From: a virus
DNA length: 64,000 bases
Virus record (IMG/VR): IMGVR_UViG_3300020152_000020
Location: 31,016 to 95,015 of that record
Strand: one strand, 5' to 3'
The position numbers and the translations under genes are program-made. The first letter of the stretch is position 1. Every line of letters starts with the position of its first letter. This document shows positions 9,942 to 62,210 of the stretch, piece by piece. The notes under the pieces were generated by a model. The model was given only the letters and a program-made list of their open reading frames with translations, was not told the DNA's origin and made no database searches.

Positions 9942-10029
9942 TCGGATGTCGCAGTTGGGGTTTCAGGGTTCACAAAGCAAATGTCGCGGTGGCAGTCCAC
10001 CGTAAATGCTGGCAGGGGTGGGAGCGTGG

Positions 10030-10044
10030 TTGACACAGCGTCAA
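10030..10044. promoter_or_regulatory. 15-bp palindrome, second copy in ParB-like leader
   Basis: TTGACACAGCGTCAA, one extra mismatch in the centre-right arm. Two copies 117 bp apart before one gene is the densest upstream arrangement in the window and suggests autoregulation. Confidence 0.6.
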
Positions 10045-10073
10045 TCGCCCGGCTCCGGGCAAGGCCACAAAAA

Positions 10074-11210
10074 ATGGAGAAAATCACCGTGGCTGTAACA
10101 AAGAAGAAAAGTCTCGACGAGGGCAAGGGTGCGGCAGCGGTTGCCGAACAGCCGACCATTCACGGCGTGCTGGTCAATTCGGGCGACATCAAGCACGGCG
10201 GCACGGCGAAGAAGCCGTTCGTCTGCCTGCTGAACCGCAAGGTCATTCACGTGCAGAAGGGCTTCAACCCGCGCACGAGCGGTCTGGGCGAGATCGACAC
10301 GCTCGCGGAGTCGATCAAGAAGGACGGTCTGCTGTCTACTCCCGTCGTTCGCCCGGACGCCGACAAGCCGGGGCACTTCCTGCTGGTCGCTGGCGAGCGC
10401 CGCCTCAAGGCGTGCGATCTGATCGGTCTGGAAGAAATTCCGGTCCAGATTCGCACCGACCTGACGGGCGATGACGACAAGGCGAAGGCTGTCGCCGTCG
10501 CGGAAAACTCCGAAGACGGGCGCACCAACCTCAATTCGATTGAAGTCGGTCGCGTCTGCAAGGACCTCGAAGACAAGGGCTGGACCGTGGCGCGCATCGC
10601 GTCGGAGTGCGGTCTGCATCCGATGAAGGTCCGGCGCTGTCTCACGCTGGTCAACGCGCCCGAAGACGTTGTGAAGAAGGTGGAGAAGGGCGAAATCTCC
10701 ATGATCGCCGGGCTGGAACTGGCGAAGCTCGACGACGACACCCGCAAGAAGATCAAGGGCGATCTGACGGCGGAAACGTCGGCGGCGGAAGTGAAGAAGC
10801 TCGCCAAGGCGGCGGCGAAGGAGAGCGAGGGCGCTACGGACGGCGCTGGCAAGCCGAACCAGAAGAAGACGGGTAAGGCGCGCGACGCGGCGCTGTACAC
10901 GTGGCAGGGGTCGAAGGCGAAGCAGGCCAAGATCGCGGAACTGGCTTATTACATCGCCAACGCGGGCGAGGACAAGGGCACGGGCGACTGGCACGAACTG
11001 CGCGGCTCGCTGGCGGCGCTGCTCTGGGATCGCGGCGACCTGACGGAGATCATGCTCCCGAACGCGGAGAGCGAGAAGCCCGCCGATAAGAAGGCGCTGA
11101 AGAAGTTCGAGGAACTGGTCGAGAAGGAAGCGGCCAAGCACACGCCGCCCGCTGTCGAGGGCGAGGGTGCCGAAGCCGAACCGGAAGAAGCGGCGGCGGG
11201 GAAGAAGTAA
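10074..11210 (+). CDS. ParB/Spo0J-like DNA-binding protein
   Basis: 378 aa from ATG 10074. A GTG at 10089 with GGAGA upstream is an equally good start. Residues about 60-150 form a ParB N-terminal domain: GFNPRTS ... LAESIKKDGLLSTPVVRP ... LLVAGERRLKACDLIGLEEIPV. The GERR motif (about residue 107) is the nucleotide-binding signature of ParB CTPases. A helix-turn-helix follows (WTVARIASECGLHPMKVRRCLTLV, about 180-205). The C-terminal half is charged. ParB proteins bind palindromic parS sites. No ParA is seen in the window, so a role in transcription or replication control is as likely as partition. It may bind the 15-bp palindrome; this is untested inference. Confidence 0.85.
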   Translation: MEKITVAVTKKKSLDEGKGAAAVAEQPTIHGVLVNSGDIKHGGTAKKPFVCLLNRKVIHVQKGFNPRTSGLGEIDTLAESIKKDGLLSTPVVRPDADKPGHFLLVAGERRLKACDLIGLEEIPVQIRTDLTGDDDKAKAVAVAENSEDGRTNLNSIEVGRVCKDLEDKGWTVARIASECGLHPMKVRRCLTLVNAPEDVVKKVEKGEISMIAGLELAKLDDDTRKKIKGDLTAETSAAEVKKLAKAAAKESEGATDGAGKPNQKKTGKARDAALYTWQGSKAKQAKIAELAYYIANAGEDKGTGDWHELRGSLAALLWDRGDLTEIMLPNAESEKPADKKALKKFEELVEKEAAKHTPPAVEGEGAEAEPEEAAAGKK

Positions 11211-16547: not shown

Positions 16548-16905
16548 GGGTAAGCCCGTGAAGAAAGGGCTGTCTCCGGTGGACGCGGAGATCGCCGAAC
16601 GTTACCGCGACGCTGCGCGTCCGACGCCTGCAACGAAGCCAAAGCCCAAGCCCGCTACGAAGAAGCTGTACATCGCTCTGGATTATGCGGGCAAGGTGTT
16701 GAGTGTCTTGCTCGCGAACGCGCGGGATGAAGCCGATCTGGTCTGGACGGGGATGGGCGTGTACGCGTCGAGTGTTGAAGAACTGGACCCGGCTGGGCCG
16801 GACCTTCCGCGCGTCGTGTGCCTGCTGTCCAGCCAAATTAAGACCGTCCGGTTGTGGGACGGTTCCCAGACGGAGATGGTGGTTTTGAAGCGAGGTATGT
16901 CTTAA
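16534..16905 (+). CDS. Unknown protein
   Basis: 123 aa, GGGGG SD. The N-terminal third is Lys/Pro/Ala-rich and probably disordered (KGKPVKKGLS ... KPKPKPATKK). The rest is a compact beta-rich domain (LYIALDYAGKVLSVLLANARDEADLV). Its stop (TAATG) overlaps the AAA+ gene start, which suggests translational coupling and a possible functional link to that ATPase. Confidence 0.6.
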   Translation: MSSSKGKPVKKGLSPVDAEIAERYRDAARPTPATKPKPKPATKKLYIALDYAGKVLSVLLANARDEADLVWTGMGVYASSVEELDPAGPDLPRVVCLLSSQIKTVRLWDGSQTEMVVLKRGMS

Positions 16906-18692
16906 TGAATTTTCATGTTCCTGTAAAACTGTTGAAGGTCGCGATCAAGCAGTGGCCGAAGGAGTTCACGAAGGACATCGTGGACATGTCGGAACTGTGG
17001 GGTGGCGAACGTGAGCTAACTCTGAGTGCTACGCGTCTGCCGCGCTCCCGGCTCGCTGACTTTCAGAAGCTCGCGAAGATCAACGGCGCGAATGGGCTGG
17101 CAAATAAAATCGGCCTGTACATGAATCTGATCGACAACGTGGCTGGGAAGCGTATCACACGGCTGGAAGAACTGAACACGGCGCTGAAGCTGTATCTGAA
17201 GTCGGCTCCGAATTTCTGGGTCTTTGGTGAGCAGGACGACGGGTATCCGGTTCCATTCTTTGTGTCGCATATCAAGAAGGTGGATCGGTACAAGGACACG
17301 CCGCCGTACGTCCGCATGACGCTTCAGTTCATGGATGCCGGGAAGCCGGACGAGAGGTACGTTGACTGGGAAACGAAGGACTTGGGTAAGAACCTTGTCG
17401 AGTTGCTCAACGAGGCCGGGTATTACCGGGCGACGAAAAGTGCCATCGAGCAGTACCAGAAAGACATTGAGATTTTCAAGAAGCTCTCGCCGATGGTTGG
17501 GCAGCAGTTCACTGCTACCGGGTTCGGGTTCTTTGCTGAGGAAGGTTACGATAATCGTTTTGAGTGCTCGTCCCTCGAATGTGACGGCCAGCCTGCCCGA
17601 CTTGTGCTCGACGATCTGTCTGAGGAAAAGGACGACGATAGTTCGAGTCGCCGCTGGCGTGGTAAGTCGGTGTGTGATGAAGGGCTGGGGCTGCTGTCGT
17701 TCTGGGAGAAGGATGAAGACCCGGATGACGTTGACGAGCAGGACGAAGCGGCGAAGACCTGTGCGCTCCCGGTCCATCCGTACCTGAAATGCTTCGATCT
17801 GGTCCGGCACGAATTCGTCTGGGTCCACTGCTCGAACATGGTCCAGTATGTGTACGATTCGGAGTTGGTGGACAAGCTCGTGCTACCGTCTGACACGAAG
17901 TCGCTGGTCAAGATTCTGATGCACGGCGCGTCGATCAAGATGGACGACATCATTAAGGGCAAGACAGGCGGCGTCATCGTGATCGCCAGCGGCCCGCCCG
18001 GCACCGGAAAGACGCTCACGGCGGAAGTGTTCTCCGAACACATTAAGTGCCCGCTGTACGTGGTTCAGTGCTCGCAGCTTGGCATCGACGAAGAAACGGT
18101 CGAGGGGCGGCTCCGCACCGTGCTGGCGCGGTCGCAACGCTGGGGTGCGTTGCTGCTGATCGACGAGGCCGACGTGTACGTCCACGAACGCGGTCACGAC
18201 ATTCACCAAAACGCGATTGTCGGCGTGTTCCTGCGGGTGCTTGAGTATTATCGCGGCATCCTGTTTATGACTTCGAACCGGGCGACCATCATCGACGACG
18301 CGATCATGTCGCGAGCTACAGCGTGGCTGAAGTACGACTTCCCGACGCCGGACGAATTGAAGTCGCTCTGGCAGATTCTGGGCAAGCAGTACGGGGTTGC
18401 GCTGTCGGATCGCGACATCGACCTGCTGATCCGCGACTTCCCGATCCTGTCCGGGCGCAACATCAAAAATATGCTGAAGCTGTCGCGAATGCTCGCGGCG
18501 GAAAAGAAGGCAAAGGTCACGACGGACACGATCCGGTACTGTGCCAAGTTCCTTGACCTGTCTCATGGAGAACGCGCAGATGGAAAGAGCAATAACGGAG
18601 CGGTGGCAAGTGGTCGAAACCGTGTTCCTGCGAAGCGAAAAGCCGGGGGCGATGACGGACCCGACTTCTCCGAACTCGATGGTCAACGTTGA
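16905..18692 (+). CDS. AAA+ ATPase
   Basis: 595 aa from ATG 16905. The N-terminal 340 residues have no recognised domain. The C-terminal AAA+ module has Walker A SGPPGTGKT (about 361-369), Walker B ALLLIDEAD (about 416), sensor 1 FMTSNR and a downstream SRAT that may provide the arginine finger, then a helical lid (GRNIKNMLKLSRML). This places it with BCS1/p97-like classic AAA proteins that remodel or unfold proteins. It sits between the two Mre11-Rad50 subunits, so a role in DNA-complex remodelling is possible. Its stop codon lies in a palindrome copy. Confidence 0.8.
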   Translation: MNFHVPVKLLKVAIKQWPKEFTKDIVDMSELWGGERELTLSATRLPRSRLADFQKLAKINGANGLANKIGLYMNLIDNVAGKRITRLEELNTALKLYLKSAPNFWVFGEQDDGYPVPFFVSHIKKVDRYKDTPPYVRMTLQFMDAGKPDERYVDWETKDLGKNLVELLNEAGYYRATKSAIEQYQKDIEIFKKLSPMVGQQFTATGFGFFAEEGYDNRFECSSLECDGQPARLVLDDLSEEKDDDSSSRRWRGKSVCDEGLGLLSFWEKDEDPDDVDEQDEAAKTCALPVHPYLKCFDLVRHEFVWVHCSNMVQYVYDSELVDKLVLPSDTKSLVKILMHGASIKMDDIIKGKTGGVIVIASGPPGTGKTLTAEVFSEHIKCPLYVVQCSQLGIDEETVEGRLRTVLARSQRWGALLLIDEADVYVHERGHDIHQNAIVGVFLRVLEYYRGILFMTSNRATIIDDAIMSRATAWLKYDFPTPDELKSLWQILGKQYGVALSDRDIDLLIRDFPILSGRNIKNMLKLSRMLAAEKKAKVTTDTIRYCAKFLDLSHGERADGKSNNGAVASGRNRVPAKRKAGGDDGPDFSELDGQR

Positions 18693-42193: not shown

Positions 42194-42221
42194 TTGGATT
42201 CCCGCCCGGTTTTGATACACT
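42194..42221 (+). promoter_or_regulatory. Promoter of the tmRNA gene
   Basis: TTGGAT (42194-42199), 16-nt spacer, TACACT (42216-42221), about 20 nt before the predicted mature 5' end. No palindrome overlaps it. Confidence 0.55.
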
Positions 42222-42240: not shown

Positions 42241-42612
42241 GGGCGTGAACAGGTTTCGACGGGACAATGGATCGAGGGCACGGCGTGTCGAGGTTGTTCG
42301 GCGGCCTCGTAAAAAACCGAACAAACGTTTAAATGCGAATCCCTTCGCACAGCAGTCCCGCGTCGCGGCCTAATAACCCGCGATCCGTGGTTCGGGAAGC
42401 CCCGCCTGTGGCGTCCCGAACTGCGCAACCGAAACAGGCTGGCCGATCCACTCTCTGTCCGGGGGTGGTTCGGTGAGATAACCGGGCTGGCTCTTACCGG
42501 GCGTGCTGGGCACCGCTGGGTGGGAGCGAGAAGGAAACAAGTAGGCCAGCTACACACGTAGATGTACTTCGTGAAAGGTCTTCGGACGCGGATTCGATTT
42601 CCGCCACGTCCA
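42241..42612 (+). ncRNA. ssrA: Transfer-messenger RNA (tmRNA)
   Basis: The 5' end GGGCGTG (42241-42247) pairs with CACGTCC (42605-42611) to form the acceptor stem, with a G3-U pair, the alanine identity signal. Conserved AGGTTTCGAC follows the 5' strand. The T-arm GCGGA-TTCGATT-TCCGC (42588-42604) lies at the 3' end. Pseudoknot 1 is clear: CGAGG/CCTCG interleaved with TTGTTCGG/CCGAACAA. The tag frame begins at GCG and reads ANPFAQQSRVAA before TAATAA (about 42332-42373). CCA is not encoded. The RNA would rescue stalled ribosomes and tag products for proteolysis. Some phages are known to carry tmRNA. Confidence 0.92.
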
Positions 42613-42621
42613 CTTCAAATC

Positions 42622-42679
42622 GGTGCGGCAGTCCGCAGGTCATCCTAAGCCTTGGGCCGGGAACCCTGCGGACGGCACC
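42622..42679 (+). other. Long hairpin downstream of tmRNA
   Basis: GGTGC (42622-42626) with GCACC (42675-42679) and GTCCGCAGG (42631-42639) with CCTGCGGAC (42665-42673) make a strong stem with a 25-nt loop. No T-run follows, so it may be a 3' processing or stability element of tmRNA or a leader for the 42705 gene. Confidence 0.45.
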
Positions 42680-42704
42680 CCAGATAAAACGCGAGGGCTT
42701 AAAG

Positions 42705-44468
42705 ATGCTGACGGAAACGGAACAGGTGGACGAAGCGGGCGTGAAGCGCATGGTGAAGAAGCGGTCGCAGGGTGATCGTCTCAAAGCCCGCCGCTACTAC
42801 AAACAGAACAAGCGCCGCATCAAGGCGATCCGCACGGGCAAGATTCGCGTGCGCCTGACCATGAACCAGAAGAAGGCCGTCGCCGCCCGGAAGCGCACGG
42901 GCCAGTACAATCGCATCGCGAAGCTGTACAACAGCGCCGACCAACTCCCCGCGACCGTGCTGGGTGAGATCGCGCACTCGAAGGACTACATTAACACTGT
43001 GTTAGAGGTTGCCGCCGCGTTCAACGATAAGCCGGACGCGCGTGAGTTCGCGAAGTTCTTCCTCGACCGTGACCCGGTGTACTCCAACACGAAGGCCGGG
43101 CTGCACGCGCTCATGTTCGAGAACTGGCTGGCCGACGAAGCCGACAGCATCTACGGAAAGCTGATCGAGACGCACGTGTCGCCCGCCGAAGAGAGCTTCC
43201 TCGCGATCTTCGAAGGCAAGCTGACCGACGAGGAACGGAAGCTGGTCAACGAGAAGGCTGAGTTCATCAAGGCTGAGATGCTGCTCGAAGCCGGAGCCAT
43301 GATCCCCGACGAAGGCGAAGTGTCGGACGTGACGATCATCGAGTGCTTCCCGGTCAAGGGTAAGCACTACGAACCGAAGGACGACGAAGCGTCCGCTCCC
43401 ATCGACGCCCCGAAGCCGGAAGATAAGCCGACCGACGAAGCCCTCACTGAAGGCGTCCGGTTCGAGAAGACGATCCGGGCCACGGACGCAACGCTGAAGG
43501 CGCTCGTGTCGTCCAACAGCGACTTCAAGGACATTGACCCGGCGCTGGCTTCGCTGGCTGGCACGGGCGGCACGAAGTACAGCCTCGTGACGGACGGCAC
43601 GGTGGGCGTGATCGTCAACGCGGAAGGGTACGACTATCCCCGCTACAAGTCCCCGCGCATGATGATGACGATCATCAACAAGCTGACGCCGGAGCAGATC
43701 GAGAAGTGTGTGGGCCGGAAGGAGAACTTCCCGCCGAAGATGCTGGTCCACGATCCGGTGTCGCTCGACCGCCTCATGCAGATGTTCGAGGGCGTCAACG
43801 AAGGCCGCGTGCTGCCCACTGAGAATGAATCGTACGGCTTCTACGGAACCTGCATCACGGCAGGGAAGACGGAAGCCGAAGCGAAGAATCTCTGGGATGA
43901 AGCCAGCAAGGGGCTGAAGAAGCTGAACCCCAAGGCGACTCCCGAACAGATTCGCGACTTCCTCGACTCGCGCATCGGTCGCCATATCGCCGATCAGGTC
44001 GCGGGGGATAACAAACCCGTTGACACTGTGTTAAAGGAAAAGTGGGTCGGCAAGGACTTCAGCAAGTTCGTCGGCACGGGGAAGGTGCGCGGCTTCGGGG
44101 AAGGAACCGACACCGTCACCAAAGACGACGGTAACGATCTGGCGGAAGAGATGGGCCGCTACGAGTCCAGCAAGCTGAACGTGAACGAAGGGGGCGACGA
44201 CGAGGAAATCACCCGCCTCACGTTCGGGAAGATTCCGGCGTGGAAAGAGTTCGAAGCCGCGTTCGATGACCGCGTTGAAGGCAATGGCTACAATATCAAA
44301 CTCAGCAGCAGCGATTCCAAGGCGGCTGAAGGAACCAGCATCGGGGATGGACGACTGAAGGCACCCGCGCTGTACAAGGGCATCAAGGAACTGATCGCGA
44401 AGGGCGACGAAGATGCGGACGACCTCGCCAGCAGCATCCTGTACACGCTGGGCTTCGAGTGGGTGTGA
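42705..44468 (+). CDS. Large unknown protein, possible processed virion protein
   Basis: 587 aa, SD GAGGGC. Residues 1-75 are very basic (SQGDRLKARRYYKQNKRRIKAIRTGKIRVRL). A helical part follows (80-200), then an acidic/Pro linker (210-245) and the sequence ALTE-GVRFEKT at 246-256, which fits the T4-type prohead protease site (L/I/V-x-E before G/A/S). The remaining part has no recognised fold. Two palindromes (42991, 44020) lie inside. Its neighbour at 44605 has seven such sites, so both may be head-internal proteins. Function otherwise unknown. Confidence 0.6.
   Translation: MLTETEQVDEAGVKRMVKKRSQGDRLKARRYYKQNKRRIKAIRTGKIRVRLTMNQKKAVAARKRTGQYNRIAKLYNSADQLPATVLGEIAHSKDYINTVLEVAAAFNDKPDAREFAKFFLDRDPVYSNTKAGLHALMFENWLADEADSIYGKLIETHVSPAEESFLAIFEGKLTDEERKLVNEKAEFIKAEMLLEAGAMIPDEGEVSDVTIIECFPVKGKHYEPKDDEASAPIDAPKPEDKPTDEALTEGVRFEKTIRATDATLKALVSSNSDFKDIDPALASLAGTGGTKYSLVTDGTVGVIVNAEGYDYPRYKSPRMMMTIINKLTPEQIEKCVGRKENFPPKMLVHDPVSLDRLMQMFEGVNEGRVLPTENESYGFYGTCITAGKTEAEAKNLWDEASKGLKKLNPKATPEQIRDFLDSRIGRHIADQVAGDNKPVDTVLKEKWVGKDFSKFVGTGKVRGFGEGTDTVTKDDGNDLAEEMGRYESSKLNVNEGGDDEEITRLTFGKIPAWKEFEAAFDDRVEGNGYNIKLSSSDSKAAEGTSIGDGRLKAPALYKGIKELIAKGDEDADDLASSILYTLGFEWV
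42991..43005. promoter_or_regulatory. 15-bp palindrome, intragenic
   Basis: TTAACACTGTGTTAG, read as I-N-T-V-L-E. Confidence 0.6.
44020..44034. promoter_or_regulatory. 15-bp palindrome, intragenic
   Basis: TTGACACTGTGTTAA, read as V-D-T-V-L-K. Confidence 0.65.
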
Positions 44469-44604: not shown

Positions 44605-47600
44605 ATGCCTAAGCCTGTCACGAACGAAACCCCCGCGCTGTACGAAGTCCAGAAGACCAAGCTCAGTAACCTCAAGCTCGATCTCGAACGGTGCCTGTCG
44701 CACTACGATGCGTGGGTGGTGGAAGAACAGGATAACGGTAAGGCGCTCGTACAGGTCCCGCTTAACGGGAAGACCCATCTGGCGTATCTGAATCTCCCCT
44801 ACGAACACGTGAAGGCCACCATCGACGAGAACGCGAAGACGTATGCCGATCTCCCGGAAGAGTTCGATACGGTGATCGAGAAGTGGCTGGTCGAACAGGT
44901 CAAGGACCCGACACTGTGTGAGCAGGACGTTGTGTTAAGCGGCCTGAATGAAGGGGTAGGAGCCACCAGTAGGTATACCGTAAGGTCAGCAACGGTCGCG
45001 CGCTCGTGTTCGCTCCGGCAACTGGCTGAAGGGAAGGCTCAGGCGAAGGCCACTACGGGATCGAACGACGAGGCTAAGGCTGACGATCTGCCCGCCCGGT
45101 TCCGCAAACGCAAAGGGGTGAAGTCGATGGAAGAAGTCTTCCCGGAGTCCGGCGTTGACATTGTGTTAATCGAATCCAAGGCCGCGCTGGCTTACCTGTG
45201 CGCGGCTGAAGTGTACGACGGCGGCACCCTGTCGCCCCAGCGGTCGCGTGAGTTCCAGCGCATCTGCGGGCTTGGCCTGCGTGAAGCCAGCGCGGTGCAG
45301 ATCGGGGACCGCATCGTACTACCGAACGGGCTGACGATGCGTGTGGTCGTGCTCTCCCCCGACGATCTGAACAACATCAAGGCTGAGGGCGGCAAGCTCT
45401 CCCCGGAGCGCATCGTCGATCTGATGGAAGCTGATCCGCTGGCTCCGAAGAAGAAGGACCACTCCACGAAGGAGAAGGACGGCGAGTTCAATTTCGAACT
45501 GAAGGACGTGCAGGACTACTACGACATCCAGATCATCCAGTCCGTCGATCAGGGTGAGGCGCTGCGCAAGACTGAACTGAAGTTCGGCGTGAAGGGCAAG
45601 CTCACCGTCTCCCCGGTTGGCGTCATCTCTGTGGACGGGCTGCTGTCCGACAAAGAGCAGGCCGAACTGGACGCGGAGCAGGCGGCTAAGGATGCGGAGA
45701 AAGAAAAGGCCGCTGCACAGGCCAAGGCTGACGCGGACGCGCAGGCCGCGAAGGACCATGAGATCGAACTGGCGAAGGCGTCGTCCAAAGGTGGCCCCAA
45801 GGTGGTCATCCAAGCGGACAAGGACGGCGATGGTAAGCCGGACAAGCCGAAGCCTACTACGAAGCCCAAGCCGACTGACGAAGCTGAGTTCCGGGTGGGC
45901 AAGAGCATCCCGGCGTTGCAGGGCTGGTCGTCTGCCAGCGCGTACGCCGTGGTGGACGGCAAGGGCCGCAGCGTCCGCAAGCACACGTTCCAGTTGATCG
46001 GCAAGGGCACGTACACGATTGTCTGGAACGCGGAAGGCAAACGCGATCTGATGTTCAACGGCCAGACGATCAGCGTGCACGAGACGCCGGAAGAAGCGGT
46101 CATTGCTGCCCGGACTCACGCGAAGTCGGTGAAGGAAAGCGTGGCCGTCGAAATGGCGCGCATCGCTGGTGTGCGTCTGGGCGGGAAGCGCGTGGCTCAC
46201 CTGACCGAAGGCGTGACGCTCCCGGAACCCATCGCGGAACGTCTCTTCACGGTCGAGGAACTGAAGGCCAAGGCTACTACGCTCCCGCTGTACAAGCTGG
46301 ACGAACGCCTGAGTCTGGCGAAGCTCGCTGCCCGGCGCGGTGAAACGCTGGATCAGGTGATGCAGAACACCGACGAGGCTCTGAAGTATGCCGGGATCAT
46401 GGTCGGTGACGAACCGCGCGCGTTCTCCCTCGACGAACTGAAGATCGTGTACAAGGCGAAGAACCCGAAGTACGACATCGGCTTTGACGAGTGGGTGTCG
46501 GCCCACTGGAAGCGCGCCAACGAGAACGCGACGCTGACGTGTCCGAACTGCAATGGCACCGACGCGGTGTCCAAGACGGAGAAGGGCTACTACTGTGACG
46601 CCTGCGACAGCGCCTTCTCCGTGAACGAAGTGTTCAAGCCGATCAGCGAGTCAGTGACGGTGCGTGAGATCGCCGAACGCGATAGCCGGGCGCTCGCCTC
46701 TGGTCCCGGCCCGGTCAAGGCGTCTGACGAACCGCTCGCCAAGCGGTACACGACGTTCCTGAAGCGTGGCAACACGTTCAGCCCGTCCGGCCCCGTGGTG
46801 GTGGCTGAGAAGCTGGACGCTTGCCCGTACGAGATCGTGCTCACGCCGTGGGGTGTTGAGTTCACGAAGGTCAAACCGAAGACGGACGAGCTACTGAAGT
46901 TCGAGTCGTCGGTGATGAACGAAGTGGTCAAAGAGGTTGACCGCTTCTGGGAGCGCCAGCAGAACTATGCCGATCTGGGTCTCATGCACTGTCGCGGCAT
47001 CCTGATGTACGGCCCGCCCGGCTCCGGCAAGTCGTGTGCGCTACAGCAGGTCACGGAGATGATGGTCGAACGCGGGGACGTGGTGTTCTTTGCCAACAAC
47101 GTCGAAGCGATCACTGAGGGCTTGAAGGCGTTCCGTGAAGTCGAAGAGAAGCGCCGCGTCGTGGTGTGCTTCGAAGAGGCTGAGGCGCTGGTCCGGTACA
47201 ATGAACGCGCGCTGCTCCGGCTGCTCGACGGTGACGCGAAGGTGAACAACGTTCTGTATCTGGCGACGACCAACTACATTGACCAGATCAGCGAGCGTAT
47301 GCTGCGGCCCGGTCGCTTCGATAAGAAGATTTACGTGGGGCACCCGCCGCTGGCCGGGCGTCTGGCTTACCTTGAGCACAAGCTGAAGGGTGCCAAGCTG
47401 GCCGAAGACGGCACGATCAAGGAACTGGCGAAGGCTACGGAAGGTCTGAGCTTCGGACACATGCGAGAGTTGCTGGTCGGCGCGTTCGCAATGGGGGAGC
47501 CTGTGAAGGACGTACTCGCCCGGCTGAAGGAAGGGATCGGGTCCATGAAGGCCAAGCTGTACGGTGAGCGCGTGACTGAAGCCGTGCAGTCGCTCGACGA

Positions 47601-48573
47601 GTCGGCTACTACGGCGCAGTGCTTCGCGTGTGACGCTGTGTTAAACGAAGCGGTCGAGAGCAAGTATGCGCTTTGCCCGGCGTGCGAAAGCAAGATCGAC
47701 GAGGCTGAGTTGTCCGACGAGACGGCGCGTAAGTTCCTCGTGCCGGGTAAGTCCGTGGTGATCGACAACGTGTGGTGGACGATCAAGAACCGCGACATCG
47801 ACGCGAACAAGGTGACGCTGCGCGTGTCGGACTGGGCGATCAAGGACGGCAATAAGCCGGGGACGAAGGACGTGTCGTTCACCGATCTGGTCGCCAAGAT
47901 TCGCAAAGGGACGTGGGGCGCGCGCATCAACGGTAAGGCGATTGGCAAGCAGCAGGACCAGACCGTGCGCGCCAAGCTGCGGGCGAAGAACGGACTACGG
48001 AAGGCTCCCGGTACGCCGGACGTGAAGGAAAGCGAGCCTGTCGTCATCGACTTCTGCGAAGCCACGCTCCCGGCGCTGCTCGCGCTGTACACCGTCGAAG
48101 GCATGAAGGGGATCGACGAGGGCGACACGTTCACTCCCGACGCTGTGCGTGACTACGCAACGAAGGCCGCTGACATTGTGTTAAGCGGAAGCTGGTCGAA
48201 GGGCAACGCGAAGGAGCACAAGCTCTGCCGGGAAGTCCTGAAGTCCACCGGGCTGACGAAGGTCTTCGAAGAGATGGACAAGGCTGCGCAGGAACTGGAC
48301 TGGGACGGCGGCGGTGAAGACCTGACGAAGCCGGAAACGGATCGGCTTGAGAAAGCCTACGAAGCGGTCAAGGAACTGGCTGAGAAGGCGAACGCGGTGA
48401 TCGAGGCGGCGTATAACCGTCTGCGGGACTGGTCGGAGAAGAAGCTGCGCGTGTCCGGCAAAGACCTGAAGATGGACGCGGCGCTTGAGTCCGATCAGGC
48501 TCTGGTCCACGTGCTCACTGTGAACGGTGTTCGCTCCCTGCTCTCGAAGATCATGCGCGCGCGTCCGCTGTAA
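44605..48573 (+). CDS. Giant AAA+ ATPase with zinc ribbons and protease-like cleavage sites
   Basis: 1,322 aa. The first 640 residues lack a known domain and contain an Ala/Lys coiled-coil stretch (about 350-420). A zinc ribbon CPNCNGTD ... CDACD lies at about 645-670. The AAA+ core has Walker A GPPGSGKS (803-810), Walker B-like VVVCFEEAEAL (about 851), LYLATTNY and RMLRPGRFDKKI (arginine finger, FtsH/p97 style). A second zinc site follows (CFACD ... CPACESK, about 1003-1030). Seven L/I/V-x-E-(G/S/A) sites occur at E116, E142, E535, E682, E992, E999 and E1015. Three clear palindromes are inside. It may be a virion-packaged remodelling ATPase. Confidence 0.75.
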   Translation: MPKPVTNETPALYEVQKTKLSNLKLDLERCLSHYDAWVVEEQDNGKALVQVPLNGKTHLAYLNLPYEHVKATIDENAKTYADLPEEFDTVIEKWLVEQVKDPTLCEQDVVLSGLNEGVGATSRYTVRSATVARSCSLRQLAEGKAQAKATTGSNDEAKADDLPARFRKRKGVKSMEEVFPESGVDIVLIESKAALAYLCAAEVYDGGTLSPQRSREFQRICGLGLREASAVQIGDRIVLPNGLTMRVVVLSPDDLNNIKAEGGKLSPERIVDLMEADPLAPKKKDHSTKEKDGEFNFELKDVQDYYDIQIIQSVDQGEALRKTELKFGVKGKLTVSPVGVISVDGLLSDKEQAELDAEQAAKDAEKEKAAAQAKADADAQAAKDHEIELAKASSKGGPKVVIQADKDGDGKPDKPKPTTKPKPTDEAEFRVGKSIPALQGWSSASAYAVVDGKGRSVRKHTFQLIGKGTYTIVWNAEGKRDLMFNGQTISVHETPEEAVIAARTHAKSVKESVAVEMARIAGVRLGGKRVAHLTEGVTLPEPIAERLFTVEELKAKATTLPLYKLDERLSLAKLAARRGETLDQVMQNTDEALKYAGIMVGDEPRAFSLDELKIVYKAKNPKYDIGFDEWVSAHWKRANENATLTCPNCNGTDAVSKTEKGYYCDACDSAFSVNEVFKPISESVTVREIAERDSRALASGPGPVKASDEPLAKRYTTFLKRGNTFSPSGPVVVAEKLDACPYEIVLTPWGVEFTKVKPKTDELLKFESSVMNEVVKEVDRFWERQQNYADLGLMHCRGILMYGPPGSGKSCALQQVTEMMVERGDVVFFANNVEAITEGLKAFREVEEKRRVVVCFEEAEALVRYNERALLRLLDGDAKVNNVLYLATTNYIDQISERMLRPGRFDKKIYVGHPPLAGRLAYLEHKLKGAKLAEDGTIKELAKATEGLSFGHMRELLVGAFAMGEPVKDVLARLKEGIGSMKAKLYGERVTEAVQSLDESATTAQCFACDAVLNEAVESKYALCPACESKIDEAELSDETARKFLVPGKSVVIDNVWWTIKNRDIDANKVTLRVSDWAIKDGNKPGTKDVSFTDLVAKIRKGTWGARINGKAIGKQQDQTVRAKLRAKNGLRKAPGTPDVKESEPVVIDFCEATLPALLALYTVEGMKGIDEGDTFTPDAVRDYATKAADIVLSGSWSKGNAKEHKLCREVLKSTGLTKVFEEMDKAAQELDWDGGGEDLTKPETDRLEKAYEAVKELAEKANAVIEAAYNRLRDWSEKKLRVSGKDLKMDAALESDQALVHVLTVNGVRSLLSKIMRARPL
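45155..45169. promoter_or_regulatory. 15-bp palindrome, intragenic
   Basis: TTGACATTGTGTTAA, read as V-D-I-V-L-I. Confidence 0.65.
47630..47644. promoter_or_regulatory. Divergent 15-bp palindrome, intragenic
   Basis: GTGACGCTGTGTTAA, read as C-D-A-V-L-N. Confidence 0.45.
48170..48184. promoter_or_regulatory. 15-bp palindrome, intragenic
   Basis: CTGACATTGTGTTAA, read as A-D-I-V-L-S. Confidence 0.55.
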
Positions 48574-61190: not shown

Positions 61191-62210
61191 ATGACCGCCG
61201 ACGAGTTGTTCCGCGACCACTTTGTCTGGGCTAAGAAGGTCGCGACCAATTTCTGCAAGGCTCGCAAGTTACCGCCGCACCTGATCGAACAGGTCACGAA
61301 CGCGGGCGTGTTCGGCATGTGGCAGGCGGCGTGTCGCTTCGATCCCGCGCGCGGGTGTACGTTCAAGACGGCTGCGATGGGCCGGATGCAGGGCGAGATG
61401 AAGGACGAGTTGCGGCGGCAGGATTTCGTCTCCCGGCGCGCGAACCGATACCGCCTGCACGGCGAAACGATCCCGACGCAGTTCCACATAAGCTCGTTTG
61501 CCAAAGACGACACTGACGCAAGGAACCCGTTCGGTTTCGTGGTCGATAACCGGGACCGCAAGGCCAGCGAGCAGAAGGAATGGCTGCTGTCCATGCTGCC
61601 TGACGCCAAGGCCAGAGAAATCGTTGAGATGTACTACTTCAGCGGATATAGTCAGCGGGAGATCGGTGAACATTTCGGAGTGTGTGAGTCGCGCGCGAAC
61701 CAGTTGTTGAAGAACGCTCTGTCGGAAGCCCGGCAGACCGCGCGCAAACGATACCCGCTCCATTTCAAAGAAGGGGCAGAACCCATGTCTGATCAGAGTG
61801 GCGGCACCGCAGTCTTGGAACCCGTGGTCGGCAAAAAGAAGCGGTACTTCGCGACGGAAAAGCGCGCGATTGTCCTGCGCGTTCAGCAGCACGCGAAGAC
61901 GGTGACGGTGTACGAGGCGTGCCGGATGGAAGGTGTCAGCTACGCGACGTACTCGAACTGGAAGAAGAAGCTGGGCTTGGAAGACCCGCTCCCCGAAGCG
62001 GTCACGAAGATCACGCCCGCCGCCCCGGTTGAAGTCAAAGAGCCGACGCTGGAAGACGCGCTCGCGATCATCAAAAAGCACGCTGACTCGTACGTGATCG
62101 CGTTCGCCAAAGGCGACACGGTGACGGCGACGATCCACGGCACGAAGAATGACTACGACACGATGCAGGTCATGCTCGCGCACCGGGCCAATCGGGACTT
62201 CACGAAATGA
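61191..62210 (+). CDS. Sigma-70-family factor fused to a second HTH domain
   Basis: 339 aa. Region 2 at about 5-88 (FRDHFVWAKKVATNFC ... GVFGMWQAACRFDPARGCTFKTAAMGRMQGEMKDELRR). Region 4 at about 128-180 (LPDAKAREIVEMYYFSGYSQREIGEHFGVCESRANQLLKNAL). From residue 199 a new segment starts at an in-frame ATG (61785) with AAGAAGGGG upstream. It holds KRYFATEKRAIVLRVQQHAKTVTVYEACRMEGVSYATYSNWKKKLGL, a transposase-like HTH. The gene likely redirects host RNA polymerase to late or middle promoters. The C-terminal HTH may also be made alone. Confidence 0.82.
   Translation: MTADELFRDHFVWAKKVATNFCKARKLPPHLIEQVTNAGVFGMWQAACRFDPARGCTFKTAAMGRMQGEMKDELRRQDFVSRRANRYRLHGETIPTQFHISSFAKDDTDARNPFGFVVDNRDRKASEQKEWLLSMLPDAKAREIVEMYYFSGYSQREIGEHFGVCESRANQLLKNALSEARQTARKRYPLHFKEGAEPMSDQSGGTAVLEPVVGKKKRYFATEKRAIVLRVQQHAKTVTVYEACRMEGVSYATYSNWKKKLGLEDPLPEAVTKITPAAPVEVKEPTLEDALAIIKKHADSYVIAFAKGDTVTATIHGTKNDYDTMQVMLAHRANRDFTK

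Follow-up and report, generated by a model that had tools for sequence, protein, structure and literature searches.

A complete one-piece tmRNA gene in the metagenomic record of a deep-branching T4-like phage

When a phage genome carries a gene for a tmRNA, the bacterial RNA that releases jammed ribosomes and marks their incomplete proteins for degradation, it has to be asked whether the gene is whole, whether it truly belongs to the phage, where it came from and what the phage could gain from it. We addressed these questions for a locus in a virus record of 95,015 bases, which is a linear-ended contig from a metagenome and of which positions 31016-95015 were analysed as one stretch of 64 kb (the window, numbered from its first base). 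The reading that we favour, with good though not full confidence, is that the locus encodes a complete and functional-looking one-piece tmRNA that performs ordinary trans-translation for a T4-like phage.

Structure of the gene and its RNA

The window contains a complete one-piece tmRNA (ssrA) gene on the + strand, found by two methods independent of each other. The Rfam covariance model RF00023, for which the gathering score is 47 bits, matched 42241-42615 (+) over its full length (model positions 1-374), and ARAGORN called a tmRNA at 42241-42613 with the tag ANPFAQQSRVAA followed by two stops. The covariance check that had been proposed for the initial tmRNA call thus came out well above threshold, and no element besides the RF00023 match was returned by the Rfam scan of the 64-kb window. 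The limits first given for the gene, 42241-42612, proved exact, since 42612 is the discriminator A; the bases after it are CTT, and so the CCA end is not encoded. The features of the locus are as follows.

42194..42221, +, promoter-like TTGGAT - 16 nt - TACACT, TG upstream (TGATACACT, extended -10 type); lax pattern search, below the sigma-70 scan threshold
42241..42612, +, one-piece tmRNA (ssrA) in its mature form, CCA not included; RF00023 160.9 bits, E 1.4e-63; ARAGORN
42241..42247, +, acceptor stem 5' arm GGGCGUG; 7/7 pairs with CACGUCC at 42605-42611, G3.U at 42243/42609
42289..42324, +, PK1: S1 CGAGG/CCUCG, S2 UUGUUCGG/CCGAACAA (8 bp); pairing and comparison with bacterial homologues
42335..42376, +, reading frame of the tag, ANPFAQQSRVAA, then double stop UAAUAA; ARAGORN, frame ends TAATAA in the sequence
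42362..42384, +, helix H5 over the tag-frame end, GUCGCGG/CCGCGAU, with the stop codons in its loop; 7/7 pairs, present in the minimum free energy fold
42390..42439, +, PK2: GUUCGGGA/UCCCGAAC and GCCUGU/ACAGGC; 8/8 and 6/6 pairs
42443..42487, +, PK3: CCGAUCCAC/GUGGUUCGG and GUCCGG/CCGGGC; 8/9 and 6/6 pairs
42490..42550, +, PK4: GCUCUUACC/GGUGGGAGC and GCUGG/CCAGC; 9/9 and 5/5 pairs
42588..42604, +, T-arm GCGGA-UUCGAUU-UCCGC; 5/5 pairs, aligned in RF00023
42628..42680, +, hairpin lacking a U-run, downstream of the tmRNA and ahead of the next gene; 42613-42704 folds at -34.5 kcal/mol, z -1.82

All the features of a tRNA-Ala-like domain are present, namely the acceptor stem with its G3.U pair, the discriminator A and the T-arm, and the stem and the T-arm (GCGGA/TCCGC) had both been read correctly in the initial annotation. 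The same holds for the tag frame with its VAA end and double stop, on which ARAGORN and the sequence (TAATAA) agree. The tag begins with Ala-Asn and finishes with Val-Ala-Ala directly before the stop, i.e. it is of the hydrophobic-Ala-Ala type, and contains no Asp or Glu and a single Arg. The E. coli tag is ANDENYALAA; it had been said to have only the terminal Ala-Ala in common with the phage tag, but the A-N at the start matches as well. V-A-A ends and PFAR-like stretches are also features of cyanobacterial tags. A degenerate search with the tag-coding sequence found no match in 2.9 million viral contigs.

The PK1 pseudoknot, whose stems S1 and S2 are linked by UAAAAAA, stands upstream of the tag, and the stems of PK2 to PK4 lie downstream. 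In 23 bacterial tmRNAs with the same S1 (a sequence that formed part of the pattern by which they were retrieved), the sequence of S2 differs and a complementary stretch of 4-10 pairs is found in each, the 4-pair cases being possibly due to chance and two of the 23 extractions (L113, L115) having begun at a wrong upstream CGAGG. Stem 2 can pair across this set, which suggests that the pairing, and not the sequence itself, is what is conserved. The stems of PK2 to PK4 can be drawn (8+6, 8/9+6 and 9+5 bp), but G+C-rich shuffles fairly often do equally well, the count of H-type pseudoknots being reached in 21 of 200. Because this count by itself is not significant, the case for the tmRNA rests on the covariance model, ARAGORN and the PK1 comparison. 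An interleaved pseudoknot was indeed readable, as first noted, while the number needed correction, since stems for four are drawable and not for one. The fold check that had also been proposed placed the minimum free energy of the RNA 3.75 sd below 100 shuffles.

A consensus scan for sigma-70 promoters and terminators around the tmRNA found nothing, and no intrinsic terminator. The promoter-like element in the list would have transcription begin about 12 nt upstream of the mature 5' end; it is suggestive only, and its weak consensus is a point against the favoured reading. The hairpin at 42628-42680 may be a processing signal ahead of the next gene.

Phage setting and related virus records

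The tmRNA had been taken to be phage-encoded, and the contents of the record bear this out. It lies among genes for a T4-type portal, a family-A DNA polymerase, a UvsX-like recombinase and an SbcC-like nuclease subunit, and the record further holds a partial terminase match, helicases, a gp32-like protein and a ParB-like protein. Judged by these genes the record is that of a deep-branching T4-like phage, the nearest isolate portals being only ~30% identical to its own. Two genes may be mentioned for themselves: 61191-62210 encodes a 339-aa protein with sigma-70 region 2, region 4 and an extra helix-turn-helix, probably a phage sigma factor, and 9981-11210 is the ParB-like gene (ParB_N and ParB HTH), here in a T4-like phage. 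Neither the 64-kb window nor the first 31 kb of the record yielded a tRNA gene, and a search for SmpB (PF01668) at E <= 10 gave nothing in the record, which is possibly incomplete.

Neither of the virus records closest to it, G002 (portal 55% identical) and G035 (polymerase 49%), contains a tmRNA. Since the nearest phage contigs are without one, the tmRNA seems to be an accessory gene that this phage has and they do not. Two virus records with distant portals (L084 and L086) carry short one-piece tmRNAs with the tag AEETTEYALAA, so that the gene recurs among distant relatives. The gene right after the tmRNA (42705-44468) has a homologue in G002 whose start is only 68 bases from the preceding ORF; this homologue came from a direct search of G002, and a scan of viral contigs for relatives of the 42705-44468 protein gave none. 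This gene (587 aa) and 44605-48573 (1322 aa, the part that carries an AAA+ domain) both match a single 2081-aa open frame in G002 (L131), apparently a split or fusion of the gene for a large protein. An HNH endonuclease-like ORF at 21-383 has its G002 homologue directly before the homologue of the post-tmRNA gene, and the HNH homing-type gene is placed differently in the two phages.

Search for relatives and origin

In overall structure the phage gene is like the bacterial one-piece tmRNAs of RF00023, with which it also shares the PK1 motif GUGUCGAGG...CCUCGUAA, a motif that served as the search pattern. Relatives close in sequence did not emerge. Against 50,697 phage records, BLAST with the tmRNA gene gave no match at E 1e-5, and at a lax limit the alignments, among the matches listed, spanned only 32-41 bases of the 3' end. 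The exact 5' end had no match in the genome collection. A looser 5'/PK1 pattern retrieved 34 bacterial loci from several phyla, with tags unlike that of the phage and no close relative among them, and none from the viral contigs; a shorter 5' pattern found six viral contigs, the tmRNAs of which were called permuted by ARAGORN. The nearest sampled bacterial tmRNA by pairwise score is that of the MAG L124, with the tag ANYDLAMAA, and a BLAST of 8 genomes of its phylum matched its own genome only. For the phylum to which the Myxococcales MAG L102 belongs, BLAST of 284 genomes matched only short conserved parts, mostly the 3' tRNA-like end. Also among the nearest sampled are Myxococcota tmRNAs with 13-residue tags, e.g. 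ANNNNFYPARMAA (L102), and the phage tag is unlike these and every other bacterial tag in the sample, though the bacterial tag bodies themselves vary widely.

In a tree of 38 tmRNAs, which were picked by a common 5' sequence and hence are no survey, the phage end branch was the longest (1.02 changes per column, where the median was 0.19), and the placement of the phage was unsupported (29/68). The lack of a close relative in phages or in the sampled bacterial tmRNAs speaks against a recent capture from any sampled host. Because the long, isolated branch keeps all the features of a tmRNA intact, selection seems a better description of its history than decay.

Function, alternatives and place among phage tmRNAs

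The RNA appears to hold all that ordinary trans-translation requires of it. If it follows the general tmRNA pathway, it would be processed by the RNase P of the host, receive its CCA from the host CCA enzyme and be charged with alanine by the host AlaRS. Host SmpB and EF-Tu would bring it to ribosomes that a broken or non-stop mRNA has stalled; because the record is without SmpB, the phage tmRNA would depend on that of the host. The stalled chain would gain Ala and ANPFAQQSRVAA, the ribosome would be freed at UAAUAA, and the C-terminal V-A-A would direct the tagged product to ClpXP-type or other AAA+ proteases of the host. For the phage, the gain would be that free ribosomes and recycled amino acids stay in steady supply while mRNA decay is high during infection or, alternatively, support where the host ssrA falls short. 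Keeping ribosomes free is the expected role of a phage tmRNA.

Several other readings must be set against this one. The RNA could be a decoy: by binding the SmpB of the host, or its AlaRS, it would dampen host trans-translation and not perform it, as would suit a record that encodes no SmpB; a tRNA-like-domain fragment in phage DS6A indeed resembles a molecule shown to inhibit tmRNA (PMC4131195). But a decoy needs only the tRNA-like domain, while here nothing is missing from the tag frame or its double stop and the stems of four pseudoknots can form, which leaves the decoy improbable. That the gene is a passenger or attachment-site copy, i.e. a host ssrA brought along by the imprecise excision of an integrated ancestor, is suggested by the use of ssrA as a common integration site (PMC9004378, PMC12656738), but is a little harder still to accept given a complete gene, nearest sampled bacterial tmRNAs that are far off and a record in which no tyrosine integrase was found by a search that did not cover serine integrases. 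Bacterial contamination, the stretch being host DNA or part of a chimera, would be conceivable for any metagenomic contig with linear ends, but it is extremely improbable here: the genes on both flanks are nearly all on one strand, the G+C of the tmRNA gene (0.605) matches that of the record (0.596), and the homologue of 42705-44468 in virus record G002 belongs to the same block as the portal gene.

The remaining alternatives concern the fate of the tagged products. The initial annotation had raised the idea that the tmRNA redirects them to a chosen protease, and the divergent tag could in principle serve a phage-encoded or phage-altered enzyme, its body being unlike the sampled bacterial tags and the AAA+ gene at 16854-18692 matching a PHROG named ATP-dependent protease. 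In Pfam, however, this gene has AAA domains only, and both AAA+ proteins of the record show AAA/NTPase domains and no peptidase; no ClpP was found in the record, the V-A-A end is ordinary and suits the usual host route, and tag bodies differ widely among bacteria anyway. The claim found no support, and we regard such retargeting as very unlikely. It is also unlikely, if slightly less so, that the phage tmRNA supplants the host ssrA in infection with a tag that, lacking Asp and Glu and having one Arg, escapes host adaptor proteins; were this true, phage-tagged products would be handled differently from host-tagged ones. Ordinary trans-translation by a complete tmRNA is the reading that we retain.

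How unusual is such a gene? In one survey, 402 of 18,146 phage genomes (given as 2.3%) had a tmRNA, and 133 unique structures were distinguished (PMC9004378); an earlier list of tmRNA phages named Bxz1-like phages, Wildcat and phage G (PMC4131195). As in the one-piece tmRNAs of the mycobacteriophages of the Bxz1/C1 group and Wildcat, of Bacillus phage G, of Streptomyces BE2 phages and of Bradyrhizobium elkanii phages, the gene on the phage genome is complete. The B. elkanii phages further resemble this record in having a tmRNA without tRNA genes (PMC12656738), unlike the C1 and BE2 phages, which have 33-44 tRNA genes together with the tmRNA. The Methylophilales phage Melnitz and related marine phages likewise carry a tmRNA on a myophage with T4-like genes, but theirs is a permuted two-piece form with a glutamine riboswitch (PMC9004378), whereas that found here is in one piece. 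With a few percent of phages already known to carry a tmRNA, the find is real but rather ordinary; the class and its presumed role have been described, and this gene joins it as a new and divergent member. Its contribution is a divergent tmRNA of an uncultured T4-like phage lineage and, because neither tRNA genes nor SmpB were found in the record, it is a fairly clear-cut case in which to ask what a tmRNA by itself brings a phage.
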